In this document: piece by piece, positions 3,549 to 57,848 of the stretch
How positions within the stretch are numbered: position 1 is the first letter of the stretch
Layout: each line of letters starts with the position of its first letter
NCBI GenBank assembly: GCA_021781455.1
Contig: JAJXWV010000075.1
Span: 1-64,000 of the forward strand
DNA from: Acidobacteriota bacterium
GTDB lineage: Bacteria > Acidobacteriota > Thermoanaerobaculia > Gp7-AA8
DNA: 64,000 bases
Direction of reading: 5' to 3'
Program-made: the position numbers and the translations under genes
The notes under the pieces: generated by a model
Told to the model about the DNA's origin: nothing
Databases searched by the model: none
The model's input: only the letters and a program-made list of their open reading frames with translations

Positions 3549-3701
3549 AGTCCTGAGTGCTGAGTCCTGAGTCCTGAGTGGGCGAAGTGCTGAGTACTGA
3601 GTGCTGAGTACTGAGTGCTGAGTACTGAGTGCTGAGTACTGAGTGGGATGACCGTCACTTCTGGCGTTTCAGGGCTCAGGACTCAGGACTCAGGACTCAG
3701 G
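3549..3701. repeat. TGAGTCC heptad hairpin between two genes
   Basis: About 14 tandem 7-base units (TGAGTCC, TGAGTGC, TGAGTAC) on the left side face four ACTCAGG units on the right, around a loop GGGATGACCGTCACTTCTGG. The right arm runs into the 3' end of the ABC ATPase gene and provides its last codons and stop (GAG TCC TGA read on the minus strand). The left end lies a few bases from the S9 peptidase start. Confidence 0.85.
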
Positions 3702-6181: not shown

Positions 6182-6937
6182 ATGAACGTCGACCTCCGCC
6201 TCGCTCTCGAGCTCGCCGATGCCGCCGACGTCATCACGCTGCGACACTTCCACTCGGCATCCCTCGGCGTGCGCACGAAGAGCGATCGCACGCCGGTTTC
6301 GGAGGCCGATGAAGCGGTCGAGCGCGTGATCCGCGAGCGGCTGGCGCGGGAGCGACCGGACGATGGGATCGTCGGCGAAGAATTCGGCAGCTCGCCGGGG
6401 AAGCGGCGCTGGATCATCGACCCGATCGACGCCACCAAGAACTACATCCGCGGAATTCCGGTCTTCGCCACGCTGATCGCGCTCGAAGACGAAGGCCGCA
6501 TCACCGCGGGCGTCGTCTCCTCCCCCGCACTTTCGCTCCGCTGGTGGGCGGCGCGGGGCGAGGGTGCGTTCCGCAACGGCGCGCCGATTCGCGTCTCGAA
6601 AGTCCCGACGATCGAAGAGGCGCACCTGTCGTACGACAGCATTACCGACTTCGACAAGCACGGCCTCGGCGTGCGCTTCCTCGCCCTGGCGCGCCGCTGC
6701 ACGCGAACGCGCGGCTTCGGCGACTTCTGGTCGTACATGCTCGTGGCCGAAGGCGCGATCGACATCGCCATCGAGCCCGAGGTCGCCCTATGGGACATGG
6801 CGCCGATCGCGATCATCGTGGAAGAGGCGGGCGGCCGCTTCACCGATCTCCAGGGCCGGCCGCGACCCGACGGCGGCAGCGGAGTGGCCACGAACGGGCT
6901 GCTGCATGGGGATGTGCTGGCCGCGCTGCGTGCGTAG
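6182..6937 (+). CDS. hisN: Inositol monophosphatase-family phosphatase, HisN type
   Basis: A 251-residue Mg-dependent phosphatase. The metal-binding motifs are GEEFG (about 62-66), WIIDPIDATKNY (about 79-90) and WDMAPIAIIVEEAGG near the C terminus. The DPIDATKNYIRGIPVFATLIAL stretch resembles actinobacterial-type histidinol-phosphatase more than generic SuhB. If so it performs the histidinol-phosphate dephosphorylation step of histidine synthesis. No other his genes are nearby, so inositol-phosphatase or related sugar-phosphatase activity remains possible. The start at 6182 follows directly on an R1 repeat; no clear Shine-Dalgarno is visible. Confidence 0.85.
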   Translation: MNVDLRLALELADAADVITLRHFHSASLGVRTKSDRTPVSEADEAVERVIRERLARERPDDGIVGEEFGSSPGKRRWIIDPIDATKNYIRGIPVFATLIALEDEGRITAGVVSSPALSLRWWAARGEGAFRNGAPIRVSKVPTIEEAHLSYDSITDFDKHGLGVRFLALARRCTRTRGFGDFWSYMLVAEGAIDIAIEPEVALWDMAPIAIIVEEAGGRFTDLQGRPRPDGGSGVATNGLLHGDVLAALRA

Positions 6938-6938
6938 C

Positions 6939-7003
6939 TCTTGGCTGTTGGCTCTTGGGACCTTAGACTCTCGCGCCCAAGAGCCAAGAGCCAAGAGCCA
7001 ACA
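6939..7003. repeat. TTGGCTC heptad hairpin
   Basis: Left units CTTGGCTGTTGGCTCTTGG face right units CCAAGAGCCAAGAGCCAA around a loop ACCTTAGACTCTCGCGC. A hairpin with the same arm unit and a similar loop lies between groES and groEL (44966-45047). It ends one base before the first candidate ATG of the next gene. Confidence 0.85.
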
Positions 7004-7599: not shown

Positions 7600-7772
7600 C
7601 GCAGCCCCGTCACTCTGAGCCGGCGAAACCGCGGGGGTGGTGGTTGGCGGGAGCGGTGGAGCGCGGCGAAGAGTCTCTTACCGGGACGATCAGTAGGTTT
7701 GAGACTCTTCGCCGCGCTACGCCGCTCCACCCTTCCGCCCTCCACGCGGCTCCGCCGGCTCAGAGTGACGGG
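7600..7772. repeat. Palindromic intergenic element, family R1 (full copy)
   Basis: A clean full-length copy: CCGTCACTCTGAGCCGGCG at the left end and CGCCGGCTCAGAGTGACGG at the right end, with GAAGAGTCTCTTACCGGGAC and GAGACTCTTCGCCGCGC in the middle. It would fold into one long hairpin with small internal loops. Confidence 0.9.
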
Positions 7773-7799
7773 GAGGACACGACGCTTCGCAGGATGACA

Positions 7800-9462: not shown

Positions 9463-9597
9463 CGGTTGCGCGGTTGCGCGGTTGCAAGGTTGCGAGGTTG
9501 CGCGGTTGCGCGGTATCGCGGTGCCGCGAACGAAGAACACGATCTACCGCTCGAACACCGCGTAACCGCGCAACCGCGCAACCTCGCAACCGGTCGG
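9463..9597. repeat. GCGGTTGC octad hairpin
   Basis: Eight-base units (GCGGTTGC with variants) starting at the stop codon of the DUF421 gene face CGCGCAAC/CTCGCAAC units at 9563-9595. The loop is AACGAAGAACACGATCTACC. A one-armed array with the same unit lies at 21854-21893. Confidence 0.85.
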
Positions 9598-16115: not shown

Positions 16116-16126
16116 CGCGCGGGTGG

Positions 16127-16276
16127 GTGGAGCGGTGGAGCGCGGCGAGCCTGCTGTCACGCGCAATCACCTGACAATCGTCCCGGTAAGAGACTCTTCG
16201 CCGCGCTCCGCCGCACCGCCCAACCACCTTCCCTGCGGCTCCGCCGGCTCAGAGTCAGAGTGACGGGAGCGCCTCT
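16127..16276. repeat. Palindromic intergenic element, family R1
   Basis: This copy is inverted in its centre: GTCCCGGTAAGAGACTCTTCG is on the right side. Its right end, GGCTCAGAGTGACGG, provides the last residues and stop codon (CCG TCA CTC TGA on the minus strand) of the flavoprotein gene that ends at 16285. Confidence 0.85.
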
Positions 16277-16284
16277 CCGCCGGC

Positions 16285-17724
16285 TCAGAGTGACGGCGGC
16301 ACGACTTTGCCGGCTGCGCTCATCCCGGCCAGCCTTCCGCTGGCCCACGCCCACTGGAAGTTGTAGCCCCCGATGCGGCCGTCGACGTCGAGGATCTCGC
16401 CGCAGAGATGCGCACCCGGACAGAGTCGCGACTCCATCGTCCCCACGTCGATCTCGTCGAGCGGCACGCCGCCGGCCGTCACTTCCGCGTAGTCGAAGCC
16501 GCGGTCGCGGACGACCGGCAAGGGCAGCTCCACGAAGACCCTGACCAGCCGGCGGCGCTCCTCTCTGGTCAATTTCACCAGCGCCGTCGTGGCGTCGAGG
16601 TCGACCGAGCGTGCCAGCGCCTCGACGATCCGCGCGGCGAGCATCCCGCGCAGAGCGCTTCCGATCGTGGCGCGCGGCTTCCGCTGCGCCTCGTCGATCA
16701 GCAGCGCCTCGAGCGACTCGAAGGATTGCTCCGGAATGACGTTCGCCACCAGCACCGGCGTTCCGCCCGCCGCTCCCTCGGCGATCCAGTGGCGGCTCAT
16801 GTCGAGGACCACCGGACCGCTGACGCCGAAGTGGGTGAACAGCAGCGAGCCGCGCTCGCGTCGAAGAACGCGCCCGCTCTCCGAACGGACGGAGAGCTCC
16901 GCGTCGGCGCTGGTGCCGCGCAGCCCGGTCAGCCAGTGATCCCTGGGAAAAACGAGCGGGACAAGGGCGGGAAGCGTCGGAACGATCATGTGGCCGAGGA
17001 TGGTTGCGAGCTCGTAGCCGAAGCCGTCGCTGCCCGTTTTGGCCACGCTGCGGCCGCCGGTGGCGAGGACGATGCGGGCCGCGGAGATCGTGCCGTGCTC
17101 GGTGCGCACGAGGAAGGGGGCTTCGTCCTGTTTTCTGCCGGTGACGCGCCCTCGCCTTCCCTTCGCGCTGGCCTGCTCGACCTGCGCAACAGCTCCGACG
17201 GCACTCCCGGTGCGCTGCGCGGCCTTGATCCCCTCGACGCGCCAGCCGCAGCGGACCACGGCGCCGGCATCGCGCGCCGCGTCGAGCAGGGCATCGAGAA
17301 CGGTGCGCGCCTGGTTCGTAACCGGAAAGAGCTTTCCCGTCGGTTCGCGCTTGAGCATCACGCCGAGGGACTCGAAAAACGCGATCGTCGCTTCGACGTC
17401 GAACGTGCGGAGCACCTTGGCGATGGCGTTGCGGTTGCCGTTGAAGTCGGCGGCGCCGACCTCGTCGTGAGTGACGTTGCAGCGGCCGCCGCCGGAGATG
17501 AGGATCTTCGCCCCGATCTTCTTCGCGCCGTCGAGGGCTATGGCACGCGCGCCGGCGCGGGCCGCGAAGATCGCCGCCATCAGCCCGGCCGCGCCCGCAC
17601 CGATGACCGCGACGTCGTACGGGCGGTCGTCGTCAGAGTCTAAATGTTGAATGTTCAATGTCGAATGCTGAAGGTTCGTAGCGCAGCATTCAACATTCAA
17701 CGTTGAACATTCAACATTGAACAT
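16285..17724 (-). CDS. BaiN/HI0933-type FAD-dependent oxidoreductase
   Basis: About 450-480 residues. An FAD-binding GAGAAGLMAAIFAARAGA motif, ISGGGRCNVTH, PTGKLFPVTNQARTVLDAL, LATGGRS and the C-terminal CGEILDVDGRIGGYNFQWAW identify the HI0933 (aminoacetone oxidase-like, BaiN-related) flavoproteins, whose physiological substrate is unclear. No normal start codon lies between the conserved core and the repeat at 17642-17733. Translation must begin inside the repeat, either at ATG 17724 or at an in-repeat TTG about five codons before the core. The C-terminal PPSL and the stop come from an R1 repeat, so both ends of the ORF are repeat-derived. Confidence 0.88.
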   Translation of the reverse strand: MFNVECSTLNVECCATNLQHSTLNIQHLDSDDDRPYDVAVIGAGAAGLMAAIFAARAGARAIALDGAKKIGAKILISGGGRCNVTHDEVGAADFNGNRNAIAKVLRTFDVEATIAFFESLGVMLKREPTGKLFPVTNQARTVLDALLDAARDAGAVVRCGWRVEGIKAAQRTGSAVGAVAQVEQASAKGRRGRVTGRKQDEAPFLVRTEHGTISAARIVLATGGRSVAKTGSDGFGYELATILGHMIVPTLPALVPLVFPRDHWLTGLRGTSADAELSVRSESGRVLRRERGSLLFTHFGVSGPVVLDMSRHWIAEGAAGGTPVLVANVIPEQSFESLEALLIDEAQRKPRATIGSALRGMLAARIVEALARSVDLDATTALVKLTREERRRLVRVFVELPLPVVRDRGFDYAEVTAGGVPLDEIDVGTMESRLCPGAHLCGEILDVDGRIGGYNFQWAWASGRLAGMSAAGKVVPPSL

Positions 17725-17733
17725 TCGGAATCC
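17642..17733. repeat. TTCAACAT octad hairpin at the flavoprotein gene start
   Basis: Left units ATGTTGAATGTTCAATG face right units CATTCAACATTCAACG and TTGAACATTCAACATTG around a loop GAAGGTTCGTAGCG. On the minus strand it is open in the frame of the flavoprotein gene and contains its only candidate start codons. Confidence 0.85.
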
Positions 17734-17797
17734 CGGCCCGTGACCATTCCGTCACGCCAATTCAACATTCGCCAATCACCTATTACCATTGGCGCCC

Positions 17798-20311
17798 ATG
17801 TTCCGCAGAACTGCCGCCCTGACAGCCCTGATCGCCCTCTTTCTCGTCTGCCCGTCCTTCGCGGCGCTCACCGAGAAGCCGGAAGACGCCGCGCAGATCC
17901 AGCTCGCGCTGAAGAAGCTGAACGTCCTCGGCAGCGCCCTCTACGTCGCCGCCCATCCCGACGACGAGAACACGGCCATGCTGGCCTGGCTCTCCAACGG
18001 CCGGCTCTATCGCGCCGGATATCTGGCCATGACCCGCGGCGACGGCGGCCAGAACCTTCTCGGCGACGAGAAAGGGCCGCTCCTCGGTGTGATCCGGACC
18101 CAGGAGCTGCTGGCCGCCCGCCGCATCGACGGCGCGGAGCAGTACTTCACCCGCGCCATCGACTTCGGCTACTCGAAAGGGCCCGGCGAGACGCTGGCCA
18201 TCTGGGGACACGACACGATCCTGGCCGACGTCGTCTGGATCATCCGCAAGTTCCAGCCGGACGTGATCGTCACCCGCTTCCCGACCACCGGCGAGGGCGG
18301 CCACGGCCACCACACGGCATCGGCAATCCTCGCCGGCGAAGCGTTCACCGCGGCGGCGGACCCGACGAAGTTTCCCGAGCAGCTCCACTACGTGAACGTC
18401 TGGCAGCCGCGCCGCCTCTTCTGGAACCGTTTCTCCTTCCGCCCCCTCGATCCGAACGATCCCTCCCTCGCGAAGTCGCTGCGCGTCGATCTCGGTGCCT
18501 ACAACCCGCTCCTCGGCCGCTCGTACACGGAGATCGCCGCCGAGAGCCGCAGCCAGCACAAGAGCCAGGGCTTCGGCTCGGCGGAGCGCCGCGGCACGTT
18601 CATCAACTACTTCAACCAGCTGGCCGGCGACCCGGCCACCACGGATATGTTCGAAGGCATCGACACGAGCTGGTCGCGCCTCCCCGGCGGCGACGCAGTC
18701 GGGAAGATCCTGCAGCAGGCATCGGACACGTTCGATCCGGAAGATCCGTCGAAGTCGATTCCCCTGCTTCTTCAGGCCCACGATGCGATGCAGAAGCTCG
18801 GGGCCTCGACGGCACTCGATCCCCGCCAGAACGCGTGGATGCCGGTCAAGATGCATGAGCTCGACGAGGTCATCCGCGCCTGCTCCGGAGTGGCCATCGA
18901 CGTGAGCGCCGCTGATTCCTCGGTCAATCCCGGCGGCGAGCTTCCGGTCAGCGTCACGGTCGTGAACCGCTCCGATTATCCGTGGACTCTGTCCGCCGTC
19001 GCCGGCATGTACGTGAATCCGGGAAAGGCAATTGGCGCGAAGCTGGCCAACAACGTTCCGGTCAAGGTCGAGGTCAATCTCAAGGTGCCGGACGACATGC
19101 CGTACTCGCAACCGTACTGGCTCGTCGACCCTCCGACGAAAGGAGCGTGGACGGTCCGGAACCAGCAGCTCATCGGCCTGCCGGAGAATCCGGTGCAGCT
19201 GCCGATCAACATCGCGCTCGACGATAACCAGATGCACACGATCGTCTACACGATGCCGGCGGTTTATCGCTGGACCGATCCGGTCCGCGGCGAGCAGGTG
19301 CGGAAGGTCGACGTCGTTCCTGACGTGACCGAGAACCTCGCCTCGAACGTCTACATCTTCCCCGAAGCGAAACCGAAGCCGGTCACGATCGCCCTGCACG
19401 ACTACGACGCGGCGGTCGCGGTCAACGTGCGTCTTCTCCTGCCGAAAGGCTGGAGCGCCACTCCGGAGAGCATGCCGGTGAAGTTCGAAAAGAAAGGCGA
19501 CGAGGCGCGGGCCACGTTTTCGGTGACGCCTCCGGCGGGCCGCTCGATCGACCAGCTCGCAGCCCAGGTCGAGCTGCCCAACGGCAAGAAGATCAGCCTC
19601 GGCGTCGTCGACATCAACTATCCGCACATTCCGGCGCAGCGCGTCTTCGGCGATGCGAACGCGAAGATCGTACGCGAAGACATCAAGAAGCGCGGCACGA
19701 GCATCGGCTACGTCATGGGATCGGGCGACGACGTGCCCGAGGCGCTGCGGCAGATCGGATACGAAGTGACGATGCTGACCGATGCCGACCTCGAGCGCGG
19801 CGACCTGTCGAAGTACGACGCCATCGTCACCGGCGTGCGGGCGTACAACACCCGCAAGATCCTGAAGATCGCCCAGCCGAAGCTCCTCGATTACGCGAAG
19901 GACGGCGGCACGCTGGTCGTGCAGTACAACACGCTCGACGAGCTGCTCATCCCCTCGCCCGGCCCATACCCGTTCAGGATCACGCACGACCGCGTGACCG
20001 TGGAAGAGGCGCCGGTGAAATTCCTCGCGCCGGACAACCCGCTCCTCAACACGCCAAACAAGATCACGGAAGACGATTTCAAGGACTGGGTCCAGGAGCG
20101 CGGGCTGTACTTCACGACGAACTGGGATCCGAAATACACGGCGGTCCTGTCGTCACACGATCCGGGGGAGCCCGATCGCGATGGCGGCGAGCTCTATACC
20201 CGCTACGGCAAGGGGGTGTTCATCTACACGAGCTACGACTGGTTCCGCCAGCTACCCGCCGGGGTTCCGGGCGCGTACAAGCTGTTCGCGAACATGGTGT
20301 CGGCGAGGTAG
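17798..20311 (+). CDS. Secreted PIG-L/LmbE deacetylase with C-terminal beta and GATase-like domains
   Basis: 837 residues. A signal peptide (about 1-22) supports ATG 17798 over the TTG nine bases upstream. The N-terminal PIG-L domain has AHPDDE (His53-Glu57) and the second zinc site GGHGHHTAS. Around 365-480 there is a domain with NPGGELPVSVTVVNRSDYPW resembling NEW3/CARDB-type modules. The C-terminal part (about 640-830, YEVTMLTDADLERGDLSKYD) resembles a ThuA/GATase1-like fold. The family is common in Acidobacteriota and Bacteroidota and is thought to de-N-acetylate glycans, but the substrate is unknown. Intergenic spacing suggests a single-gene unit. Confidence 0.88.
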   Translation: MFRRTAALTALIALFLVCPSFAALTEKPEDAAQIQLALKKLNVLGSALYVAAHPDDENTAMLAWLSNGRLYRAGYLAMTRGDGGQNLLGDEKGPLLGVIRTQELLAARRIDGAEQYFTRAIDFGYSKGPGETLAIWGHDTILADVVWIIRKFQPDVIVTRFPTTGEGGHGHHTASAILAGEAFTAAADPTKFPEQLHYVNVWQPRRLFWNRFSFRPLDPNDPSLAKSLRVDLGAYNPLLGRSYTEIAAESRSQHKSQGFGSAERRGTFINYFNQLAGDPATTDMFEGIDTSWSRLPGGDAVGKILQQASDTFDPEDPSKSIPLLLQAHDAMQKLGASTALDPRQNAWMPVKMHELDEVIRACSGVAIDVSAADSSVNPGGELPVSVTVVNRSDYPWTLSAVAGMYVNPGKAIGAKLANNVPVKVEVNLKVPDDMPYSQPYWLVDPPTKGAWTVRNQQLIGLPENPVQLPINIALDDNQMHTIVYTMPAVYRWTDPVRGEQVRKVDVVPDVTENLASNVYIFPEAKPKPVTIALHDYDAAVAVNVRLLLPKGWSATPESMPVKFEKKGDEARATFSVTPPAGRSIDQLAAQVELPNGKKISLGVVDINYPHIPAQRVFGDANAKIVREDIKKRGTSIGYVMGSGDDVPEALRQIGYEVTMLTDADLERGDLSKYDAIVTGVRAYNTRKILKIAQPKLLDYAKDGGTLVVQYNTLDELLIPSPGPYPFRITHDRVTVEEAPVKFLAPDNPLLNTPNKITEDDFKDWVQERGLYFTTNWDPKYTAVLSSHDPGEPDRDGGELYTRYGKGVFIYTSYDWFRQLPAGVPGAYKLFANMVSAR

Positions 20312-20337: not shown

Positions 20338-20545
20338 CCCCGTCACTCTGAGCCGGCGTAACCGCGGGGGCGGTGGATGGGTGGGAGCGGTGGAGCGCGG
20401 CGAAGAGTCTCTTACCGGGACGATGAGCCGGCTCGAGCGGAGTGACGGCGGGCTCACCGCGATCGTGCAATCTGGAGACTCTTCGCCGCGCTGCGCCGCT
20501 CCCCCCCACCGCCAGCCCGCGGCTCCGCCGGCTCAGAGTGACGGT
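20338..20545. repeat. Palindromic intergenic element, family R1 (long-centre copy)
   Basis: CCGTCACTCTGAGCCGGCG and CGCCGGCTCAGAGTGACGG ends; centre with GAAGAGTCTCTTACCGGGAC, GATCGTGCAATCTGGAGAC. It is preceded by a short GATCGCAGATCGCC unit at 20326 and followed by CCTGCGATCTGCCATCTGCG up to 20655, so an R1 copy appears to sit within the loop of a GATCGCA hairpin. It lies between convergent genes in a gap of 344 bases with no gene. Confidence 0.85.
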
Positions 20546-21568: not shown

Positions 21569-21690
21569 AGACTGCAGACCGCAGACCGCAGACCGCAGAC
21601 CGCAGACCACAGACCACAGACCACAGACCGCAGACCGCGGAAGCGGCACGATCGGGCTGCGGCCCGCGGTCCGTCGTCTGCGGTCTCTCC
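21569..21690. repeat. GACCGCA heptad hairpin upstream of the DUF2911 gene
   Basis: About ten 7-base units (GACCGCA and GACCACA) on the left, a short complementary right arm GTCTGCGGTCTC, and a loop with GCGGCACGATCGGGCTGCGG. A longer copy with the same unit and a similar GCGGCACG-containing loop lies at 51658-51838. The remaining sequence to 21924 holds an octad array (21854-21893) and about 160 bases (21691-21853) in which I see no gene. Confidence 0.85.
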
Positions 21691-24318: not shown

Positions 24319-24398
24319 AAGTCCTGAGTGCTGAGTCCTGAGTCCTGAGGCGCAGGAGCGATCCACTCCGGGACTCGGCATTCAGGACTCAGGACTCG
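24319..24398. repeat. TGAGTCC heptad hairpin between divergent genes
   Basis: Left arm CCTGAGTGCTGAGTCCTGAG, loop GCGCAGGAGCGATCCACTCCGG, right arm ATTCAGGACTCAGGACTCG. The right arm ends at the ATG of the DUF2784 gene; the left end is 14 bases from the 5'-nucleotidase start. Any promoters of these divergent genes must overlap the hairpin. Confidence 0.85.
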
Positions 24399-27841: not shown

Positions 27842-28048
27842 TCCGCGGCGTCCAGCGCCGTCGAGATCCGCACGACGAGGTTCGGCGGCCACACCGGCTT
27901 CGTGGCCGGACGGGTGCCGTGGCGCTGCACGTACTGGGCGGAAGAGATGATCGTGGATTGGCTCATCGGGCGCGGGATTCCGGGTTACGCCGCTGAGGAG
28001 TCGCGAATCAGAGCGCAGATGGCAGATCGCAGATCGCAGGTGGGCTGA
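27842..28048 (+). pseudogene. C-terminal remnant of a YheT-like alpha/beta hydrolase
   Basis: The plus-strand frame ending at TGA 28046-28048 reads TTRFGGHTGFVAG, then PWRCTYWAEEMIVDWL. This matches the end of the YheT/COG0429 alpha/beta-hydrolase family, where GGHxGF carries the catalytic His and a W-x-E-x-x-I-x-x-WL segment closes the protein. The nucleophile Ser and everything else upstream are missing, replaced by the ~230-bp repeat. The last residues (QMADRRSQVG) and the stop are from a heptad array. It is most simply a gene truncated by repeat-mediated rearrangement. Confidence 0.6.
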
Positions 28049-28088
28049 AAAGACCGACCCGCGATCTGCGATCTGCGATCTGCGCTCC
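28014..28088. repeat. GATCGCA heptad hairpin
   Basis: Left units GCAGATGGCAGATCGCAGATC, loop GGTGGGCTGAAAAGACCGACC, right units GCGATCTGCGATCTGCGATC. It ends about 20 bases before the E1 fusion start. Confidence 0.85.
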
Positions 28089-53579: not shown

Positions 53580-53801
53580 CCCGTCACTCCGAGCCGGCGG
53601 AGCCGCACGGTGGGCGGGTGGTGGTGCGGCGCAGTGCGGCGAAGAGTCTCCGGATTGCACGATCGCGGTGAGTCGGCTGCCATCGCTCCGAGAATGTGAT
53701 CAAGGGCAAGACTCCATGAGGTGCGCATTTTGAGACTCTTCGCCGCGCTACGCCGCTCCACCCGCCCGCCTCCCCCGCGGCTCCGCCGGCTCAGAGTGAC
53801 G
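53580..53801. repeat. Palindromic intergenic element, family R1 (long-centre copy)
   Basis: CCGTCACTCCGAGCCGGCGG and CGCCGGCTCAGAGTGACGG ends; inner GAAGAGTCTC and GAGACTCTTCGCCGCGC; centre GGATTGCACGATCGCGGTGAG shared with 12277-12496 and 20338-20545 in inverse orientation. Its right end encodes the last residues (PPSL) and stop of the MFS transporter gene. Confidence 0.87.
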
Positions 53802-57663: not shown

Positions 57664-57848
57664 GCCAGATCGCAGATCGCAGATCGCAGATCGCAGATCG
57701 CAGGCAGACTCGTTGAAGGCCGAGTGCTGACGTTTCTGTGATTACAATCCAGCGCACTGCTCACTATCCCACGTGCCCGTAAATCCCCGCGCCGCCTCGG
57801 CCTGCGATCTGCGATCTGCGACCTGCGATCTGCCACCTGCGATCTGGA
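57664..57848. repeat. GATCGCA heptad hairpin with a long loop
   Basis: Five GATCGCA units (57666-57703), a loop of about 95 bases without recognisable motifs, then CTGCGATCTGCGATCTGCG, ACCTGCGATCTG units (57801-57847). It begins directly after the SpoIIE-gene stop and ends 18 bases before the EttA start. Confidence 0.85.

Follow-up and report, generated by a model that had tools for sequence, protein, structure and literature searches.

How does a gene begin when every start codon open to its reading frame lies within or against a hairpin of short repeated words? The question is raised by a flavoprotein gene in the 64,000-nucleotide stretch of DNA analysed here (the window), which is part of contig C47 of the draft genome G000 (4.88 Mb, 90 contigs). 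The reading that we favour, with a probability of about 0.72, is that the hairpin was gained at or over the native start of the gene and that ATG 17724 is most likely the codon now used, with 27 hairpin-coded residues before the Rossmann fold.

The flavoprotein gene and its start

The predicted product scored 380.3 bits against TIGR00275, well above the curated cut-off of 183.8, and 247.9 against PF03486 (cut-off of 50), placing it in the TIGR00275 family. The GxGxxG FAD motif is present with its invariant glycines, and the gene is intact, retaining the invariant residues of the family in a 14-member alignment. Coordinates of the gene, its hairpin and neighbouring features are collected in Table 1.

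Table 1. Features at the flavoprotein locus and word hairpins elsewhere in the window
Feature	Position	Strand	Remark
Flavoprotein gene, HI0933-like / TIGR00275	16285..17724	-	likely start ATG 17722-17724; repeat would code residues 1-27
GTCACTCTGAG copy	16284..16294	-	supplies the flavoprotein stop codon (TGA)
Non-word inverted repeat just downstream of flavoprotein gene	16124..16222	.	
Left arm of AATGTTG-word hairpin (3' arm in flavoprotein mRNA)	17643..17672	.	contains in-frame TTG 17656-17658
Hairpin loop, 16 nt	17673..17688	.	
Right arm (5' arm in flavoprotein mRNA)	17689..17718	.	in-frame TTG 17698-17700; word array extends to 17726
ATG, sole in-frame ATG upstream of FAD core	17722..17724	-	just 5' of stem
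Additional single TTCAACATT, between hairpin and PIG-L gene	17761..17769	+	
PIG-L-domain gene, divergent from flavoprotein	17798..20311	+	ATG 17798; alternative TTG 17789
AGTCCTG-word hairpin	3552..3701	.	same class as flavoprotein hairpin
GCTCTTG-word hairpin	6937..6998	.	same class; occupies whole spacer
GGTTGCG octad-word hairpin	9488..9591	.	same class
GCAGACC-word hairpin	21576..21686	.	same class
AGTCCTG-word hairpin, divergent genes either side	24320..24396	.	same class
GCAGATC-word hairpin	28011..28087	.	same class
GCAGATC-word hairpin	57672..57833	.	same class

The two hairpin arms are 30 nt each and 90% complementary, and the window holds four copies of TTCAACATT, where 0.06 would be expected. 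As RNA, the 92-nt hairpin folds with -38 kcal/mol (z -6.5), a stability that none of 200 shuffles equalled. Upstream of the FAD core, the only in-frame starts are ATG 17724, TTG 17700 and TTG 17658; above the ATG, the frame runs for nine codons to a stop without a further start. The peptide that the hairpin would code includes the LNIQHLDSDDDR region. An earlier note on this DNA had placed the core five to six codons after the repeat, a distance that we correct to nine: the repeat is followed by TTA GAC TCT GAC GAC GAC CGC CCG TAC (LDSDDDRPY) and then by GAC GTC GCG GTC ATC, the beginning of DVAVIGAG. Codon reading bore out its further point that ATG, GTG and TTG are absent from this interval, and extended it to CTG and ATT, which are likewise missing from all nine codons.

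The same observation bears on the possibility that the hairpin is left untranslated and that an unusual codon downstream of it serves for initiation, perhaps as in the relative G009. There, the orthologue (L033, upstream of 1522) runs in frame from the upstream stop to the core without an ATG, GTG or TTG, and its only in-frame CTG, a possible start, lies six nt past AGAGGTG; an AAAGTC octad repeat stands just upstream. In G000, TTA 17643 lies close to the aligned position, which would favour such initiation, but TTA is not known to be an efficient start. The hairpin frame of the flavoprotein is moreover open, whereas most frames of AATGTTG hairpins are closed: among 11 such hairpins in G000, 8 of the 66 strand-frames were open from end to end, and 5 of the 66 combined an open frame with an ATG within the first six codons. 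Since so few of these frames are open, that at the flavoprotein is unlikely to be accidental, and we regard initiation beyond the hairpin as quite unlikely. Over all 120 word hairpins sampled, 265 of 720 frames were open.

The earlier note had also put all in-frame starts inside the hairpin and proposed that, in the RNA, the start codon is concealed by the stem. For the two TTGs, both statements hold: they lie in the arms, and in a 230-nt fold they were buried, with P(unpaired) of 0.00-0.05. ATG 17724, on the other hand, sits at the lip, outside the main stem, which begins about 6 nt downstream; the bases of its AUG gave P(unpaired) of 0.70, 0.70 and 0.14, so that it is mostly unpaired. The fold thus predicts a stem that would hinder initiation at ATG 17724 without burying the AUG itself. 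No clear Shine-Dalgarno site precedes this ATG, but of the 646 genes called in G000, only 194 have a Shine-Dalgarno 4-mer upstream.

A very stable fold at a gene start might also be a regulatory RNA, selected for low or conditional flavoprotein synthesis, for example by obstructing ribosome entry. The mostly unpaired AUG speaks against this, as does an Rfam search at gathering score, which gave no match across the window; an intrinsic terminator (GC-rich stem plus T run) was not found in 17500-17900. The distribution and turnover of related hairpins, given below, bear on the same question, and taken together we consider a regulatory role rather unlikely.

That the start of this ORF is an artefact of annotation or assembly, with the true start out of frame, is most improbable in our judgement. 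The genome is a draft in 90 contigs, and a frameshift in the assembly near the flavoprotein start is conceivable; however, no ATG, GTG or TTG was seen by eye in any frame between the repeat and the core, and comparable cases exist at other loci.

The stop codon also falls within a dispersed repeat, whose 13-mer GTCACTCTGAGCC has 325 matches genome-wide (at most one mismatch) against 2 for the reversed control. The earlier description of the ORF as repeat-bounded at both ends is therefore literally true, but the two ends belong to two different dispersed families, and contact of this kind is common, with 38 of 678 called stops in the G000 sample lying in or at hairpin arms. Among 54 copies of GTCACTCTGAG, the TGA forms the called stop of three genes. 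Within the window, hairpins not built of words and copies of the dispersed repeat GTCACTCTGAGCC were seen at 7605-7773, 16124-16294, 20378-20508 and 53620-53762; both also occur genome-wide.

Flavoprotein orthologues and probable displacement of the start

For comparison of N termini, a flavoprotein search was made that took in 40 genomes, G000 included, of which 25 gave matches. Among relatives with a match, the divergent PIG-L neighbour is kept in G002, G009 and G016, where the distance from the PIG-L ATG to the flavoprotein core (IGAG motif) is 61, 77 and 88 nt, respectively, compared with about 193 nt in G000. Several orthologues start only three to five residues before the core (G012, MIY-DVAV; G002, MSRC-DVAV; G006, MEQV-DIAI; G016, MQCDC-DIAI), and in other relatives the nearest canonical start is 7-15 residues upstream of it, G009 having none. 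Because the three relatives that keep the PIG-L neighbour have shorter spacers, it seems that the G000 lineage gained the hairpin on its own and that the start was shifted by this gain. The earlier suggestion that the hairpin may have replaced the native start region agrees with both the spacers and the orthologue starts near the core: the hairpin supplies the start and has probably displaced the native one.

Hairpins of other words stand before the same gene elsewhere, as read by eye: the congener G001 has one made of a GAGCCC hexad, further upstream than in G000, and G006 has one made of a CTTCTGC heptad. The PIG-L neighbour was not found in the G001 stretch examined, and no exact empty site was seen.

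From these comparisons, we propose that a hairpin of the TTCAACA word arose in the spacer and either overran or adjoined the native flavoprotein start. Cells that kept a frame open from the ATG at the stem edge would have stayed viable, and the resulting repeat-coded extension would precede the Rossmann fold, where additional residues may be tolerable. Similar capture may have occurred at other genes, some of which would start in the loop and be translated through the 3' arm.

Word hairpins as a genome-wide class

Inverted repeats were listed with arms of at least 20 nt, identity of at least 80% and a loop of at most 150 nt, and were taken as word hairpins when their two arms had matching periodicities of 6-9 nt. 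The G000 sample consisted of the window and 20 slices (464 kb), then 20 further slices (400 kb), for a total of 864 kb; samples were picked by coordinate, and genes were called using a simple home-made codon-usage caller. In a word hairpin, a 7-nt (sometimes 8- or 9-nt) word is repeated about three to six times and followed by an unrelated loop and the reverse-complement array, the loops being unrelated from site to site. About a fifth of G000 spacers of at least 30 bp carried one (108/487, made up of 56/256 and 52/231), as did 37 of 161 in the congener G001 (317 kb). The more distant G009, G011 and G016 gave 10/67, 13/91 and 4/70, and the class-level control G028 gave 0/47. In 80 loci from bacteria of other groups (547,759 bp), one of 23 hairpins was a word hairpin.

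Across 111 G000 elements, the words included AGT[CGA]CTG (38), GGTTNCG[CA] (20), GCT[CG]TTG (9), AATTGA[AG] (8) and CAGACCG (7), followed by GCAGATC (6), GGTCACC (5), AGCGGGT (4) and AATGTTG (3), the word of the flavoprotein hairpin. Arms matched their own partner only slightly better than the arms of other elements, with identities of 0.951 versus 0.920 for AGTNCTG (38 elements) and 0.917 versus 0.874 for GGTTNCGM (20), in a comparison where partners were preselected at 80% identity and other arms were register-optimised. The two values were within 0.03 in four smaller families, and AATTGAR, in which two words are mixed, gave 0.971 versus 0.866. Given how both sides were chosen, so small an advantage of the partner arm is at most a hint against a regulatory stem and no proof of selection for pairing.

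Word hairpins were depleted in convergent spacers. In G000 they occupied 5 of 85 convergent spacers versus 103 of 402 others (p 0.003 and 0.005 per sample; pooled, 2e-5), and in G001 1 of 25 versus 36 of 136 (p 0.017), giving 6/110 versus 139/538 for the two genomes combined. Non-word hairpins in G000 had the opposite preference (40/85 convergent versus 64/402 other spacers). Because convergent spacers are avoided, word hairpins in these two genomes go with the 5' ends of genes, as a regulatory role would have it. Outside the genus, small samples gave no support for such a bias (convergent versus other spacers, G009 4/16 versus 6/51; G016 1/6 versus 3/64; G011 3/17 versus 10/74). Flanking stops lay at a median of 8 nt from a word hairpin (95 cases), and flanking starts at a median of 37 nt (134 cases).

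The class turns over fast between related species. Orthologous spacers of G000 and G001 were compared after dropping five pairs in which both spacers were below 30 nt; in the 22 remaining, a hairpin was present in both genomes in 4, in G000 only in 2, in G001 only in 3 and in neither in 13 (Fisher 0.054), a result that does no more than suggest that a spacer occupied in one congener tends to be occupied in the other. Even where the hairpin was shared, the words differed in two of the four spacers: AATTGAG in G000 versus CAGTTACT in G001, and AGTCCTG versus AGTTGATC and GGTGGTCG. Individual words are also patchy. With at most one mismatch, TTCAACATTSAACATT was present in 13 of 60 genomes, with 57 hits in G000, 0 in G001, 218 in G003, 404 in G012 and 364 in G017. 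The TTCAACA word ranged from 0 to 404 hits within one family (G003, G012, G014 and G017 versus G001, G002 and G004). That words, presence and position vary between congeners, and among the flavoprotein relatives, is a further point against a regulatory element conserved by selection.

The many words, unrelated loops and rapid turnover would fit an origin of these hairpins as functionless mutational by-products, formed by slippage and template switching where cruciforms arise in negatively supercoiled spacers, and tolerated by the genes around them; the depletion in convergent spacers, where positive supercoiling is expected, points the same way within this genus. Local slippage alone does not explain why one word is met at numerous sites and in more than one genus, a sharing that asks for copying, and the orientation bias was not seen in the small samples of G009, G011 and G016. 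We hold such an origin to be a serious possibility, although somewhat short of even odds; since it concerns how hairpins arise, it is compatible with the capture of the flavoprotein start.

When the 120 word hairpins were viewed on both strands (240 views), the first arm had stops in at least two frames and the second had none in 105, the reverse held in 13, and in 78 both arms were free of stops. These views are non-independent and a few words dominate them, so the polarity is an observation and not a test. It enters a broader proposal, which we put forward tentatively and on balance doubt: a lineage-wide, multi-word palindromic spacer system may repeatedly capture gene boundaries, in that many elements would end one gene in a first arm with stops in all frames and, from a start in the loop or arm, begin the next through a stop-free second arm with a repeat-coded N terminus, with words swapped between sister species while the hairpin tends to stay.

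Other probable captured starts and comparison with known repeats

A called start in or at a hairpin arm was found for 5 of 678 called genes, in every case at a word hairpin, but three of the five (L174, L185 and L217) proved to have an ATG outside it. In a scan of 114 facing gene-hairpin pairs, 81 frames entered the hairpin, and an in-frame start lay inside it in 44. On reading the N termini, 5 of the 114 were judged to lack a usable start outside the hairpin: the window flavoprotein, an FtsX/MacB-like permease (L172:5590), NadC (L173:6517), an aldolase/racemase-like protein (L203:11061) and L171:16755, the last a weaker case with a methyltransferase match below the Pfam cut-off. A further gene, the solute-binding lipoprotein L145:2526, was found via separate TTCAACA loci. 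In L145 and in the NadC, permease and aldolase-like genes, the loop contains the ATG and the protein's frame continues through the 3' arm; for NadC and the permease, translation appears to start in the loop and to include this arm. L174:11189, L217:1737, L185:17073 and L154:1625 were rejected as start-in-hairpin genes, an ATG being present outside the hairpin in each, and L216:2649 and L204:6941 are candidates only (signal peptides, TTG starts).

NadC of G000, with MASPTPDPRPPTPK in its predicted N-terminal part, begins to match TIGR00078 at residue 20, and the match of the aldolase-like protein to its own model begins at residue 17. NadC matches were obtained in 17 of 18 family genomes, G000 included, and homology begins at query residue 6-16 in the 16 relatives. 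The NadC motif was found in 12 of 17 loci, those of G000 and of 11 relatives; in each of these relatives a canonical start lies shortly upstream of the core, and the 220 nt above NadC contain no word hairpin. The permease reads MRRPFLNSQFSILNSLFPVLTALILRP in G000 and MTFPVLTALILRP in G001, where a hairpin built from another word immediately precedes it. The loop starts at L173:6460-6580 and L203:10990-11110 share ATGGCATCC (M-A-S) despite different genes and words.

RNA folds at the loop starts were very stable for L203 (z -8.3) and L172 (z -9.1), whereas the stretches folded at L173 and L145 did no better than shuffles, so display of a start in a loop is not uniform at the RNA level. For genes in tandem, a ribosome that terminates within the 5' arm might unfold the hairpin and initiate again at the loop; at L172, the upstream frame appears to end in a hairpin arm. 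This terminate-and-restart route is inapplicable to the flavoprotein because its gene is divergent from its neighbour.

Parts of this picture are already published, namely inverted heptamer arrays in Xanthomonas and repeats beside starts in Beggiatoaceae, and multi-word start-codon capture looks new. Among the papers listed by searches of an open-access library, none described multi-word spacer hairpins that capture start codons in its title or abstract opening, which is weak evidence of novelty. If the reading is true, intergenic repeats are not passive filler but redraw the beginnings and ends of proteins, differently in sister species, and automated start calls in such genomes are either wrong or hide repeat-coded N termini. 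The hairpins would then offer a natural set for studying the survival of genes whose native start is lost, initiation by ribosomes at or within stems of high stability, and the spread of short words in the absence of any evident element.

A close likeness is to the GGGAATC / GGGGA(T/C)T arrays of Xanthomonas and Nostoc, tandem heptamers that are mostly intergenic, with 70 inverted pairs in Xcc and 75 in Xac; they accompany different genes in the two Xanthomonas species and lie closer to the 5' neighbouring ORF (PMC4692102). The G000 elements are likewise tandem 7-nt units, intergenic and arranged in inverted pairs, but they use AATGTTG, AGTNCTG, GCTSTTG, CAGACCG and other words instead of the G-rich, quadruplex-forming GGGAATC/GGGGAYT unit. 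One word type is described for Xanthomonas/Nostoc, compared with at least nine word families and start-codon capture in G000, and the section on inverted arrays holds no description of translated arms (PMC4692102).

In marine Beggiatoaceae, TAACTGA repeats stand just upstream of start codons in a setting of few Shine-Dalgarno sites, and some overlap stop codons or code the end of a protein (PMC4679880). The account given of these repeats is of direct copies of one word with a single inverted case and no hairpin class (PMC4679880), unlike the TTCAACA word and inverted arms at the flavoprotein. The CAGTTACT-type octad word of G001 (L241, L252, L258) contains TAACTGA, the Beggiatoaceae/cyanobacterial heptamer, on the opposite strand. 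A parallel for word exchange is the P6b stem-loop of the Nostoc trnL intron, a stem of 7-nt motifs in which two motif classes interchange at one site; it is a single intron stem, whereas the G000 elements occupy dispersed spacers and gene starts (PMC4476775). Rickettsia palindromic elements are translated in frame as part of proteins, but are described as families of about 150 bp with conserved peptides, many of them within ORFs, and that description includes no tandem-word stems (PMC10969869). In G000, loops and reading frames vary by site, so no conserved peptide results, and in-frame translation of the arms is probable at several genes.

REP and REPIN sequences, the subject of PMC3733652 and PMC3116915, are also dispersed intergenic hairpins, but consist of short conserved palindromes associated with a RAYT (Y1) transposase, whereas the G000 arms are word arrays with unrelated loops. 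G000 has 14 Y1_Tnp (RAYT-like) matches; a word hairpin was near one of the four loci inspected, so that adjacency was not consistent among these four. Some G000 Y1 transposases (e.g. L296-L299) sit between short palindromes of their own.
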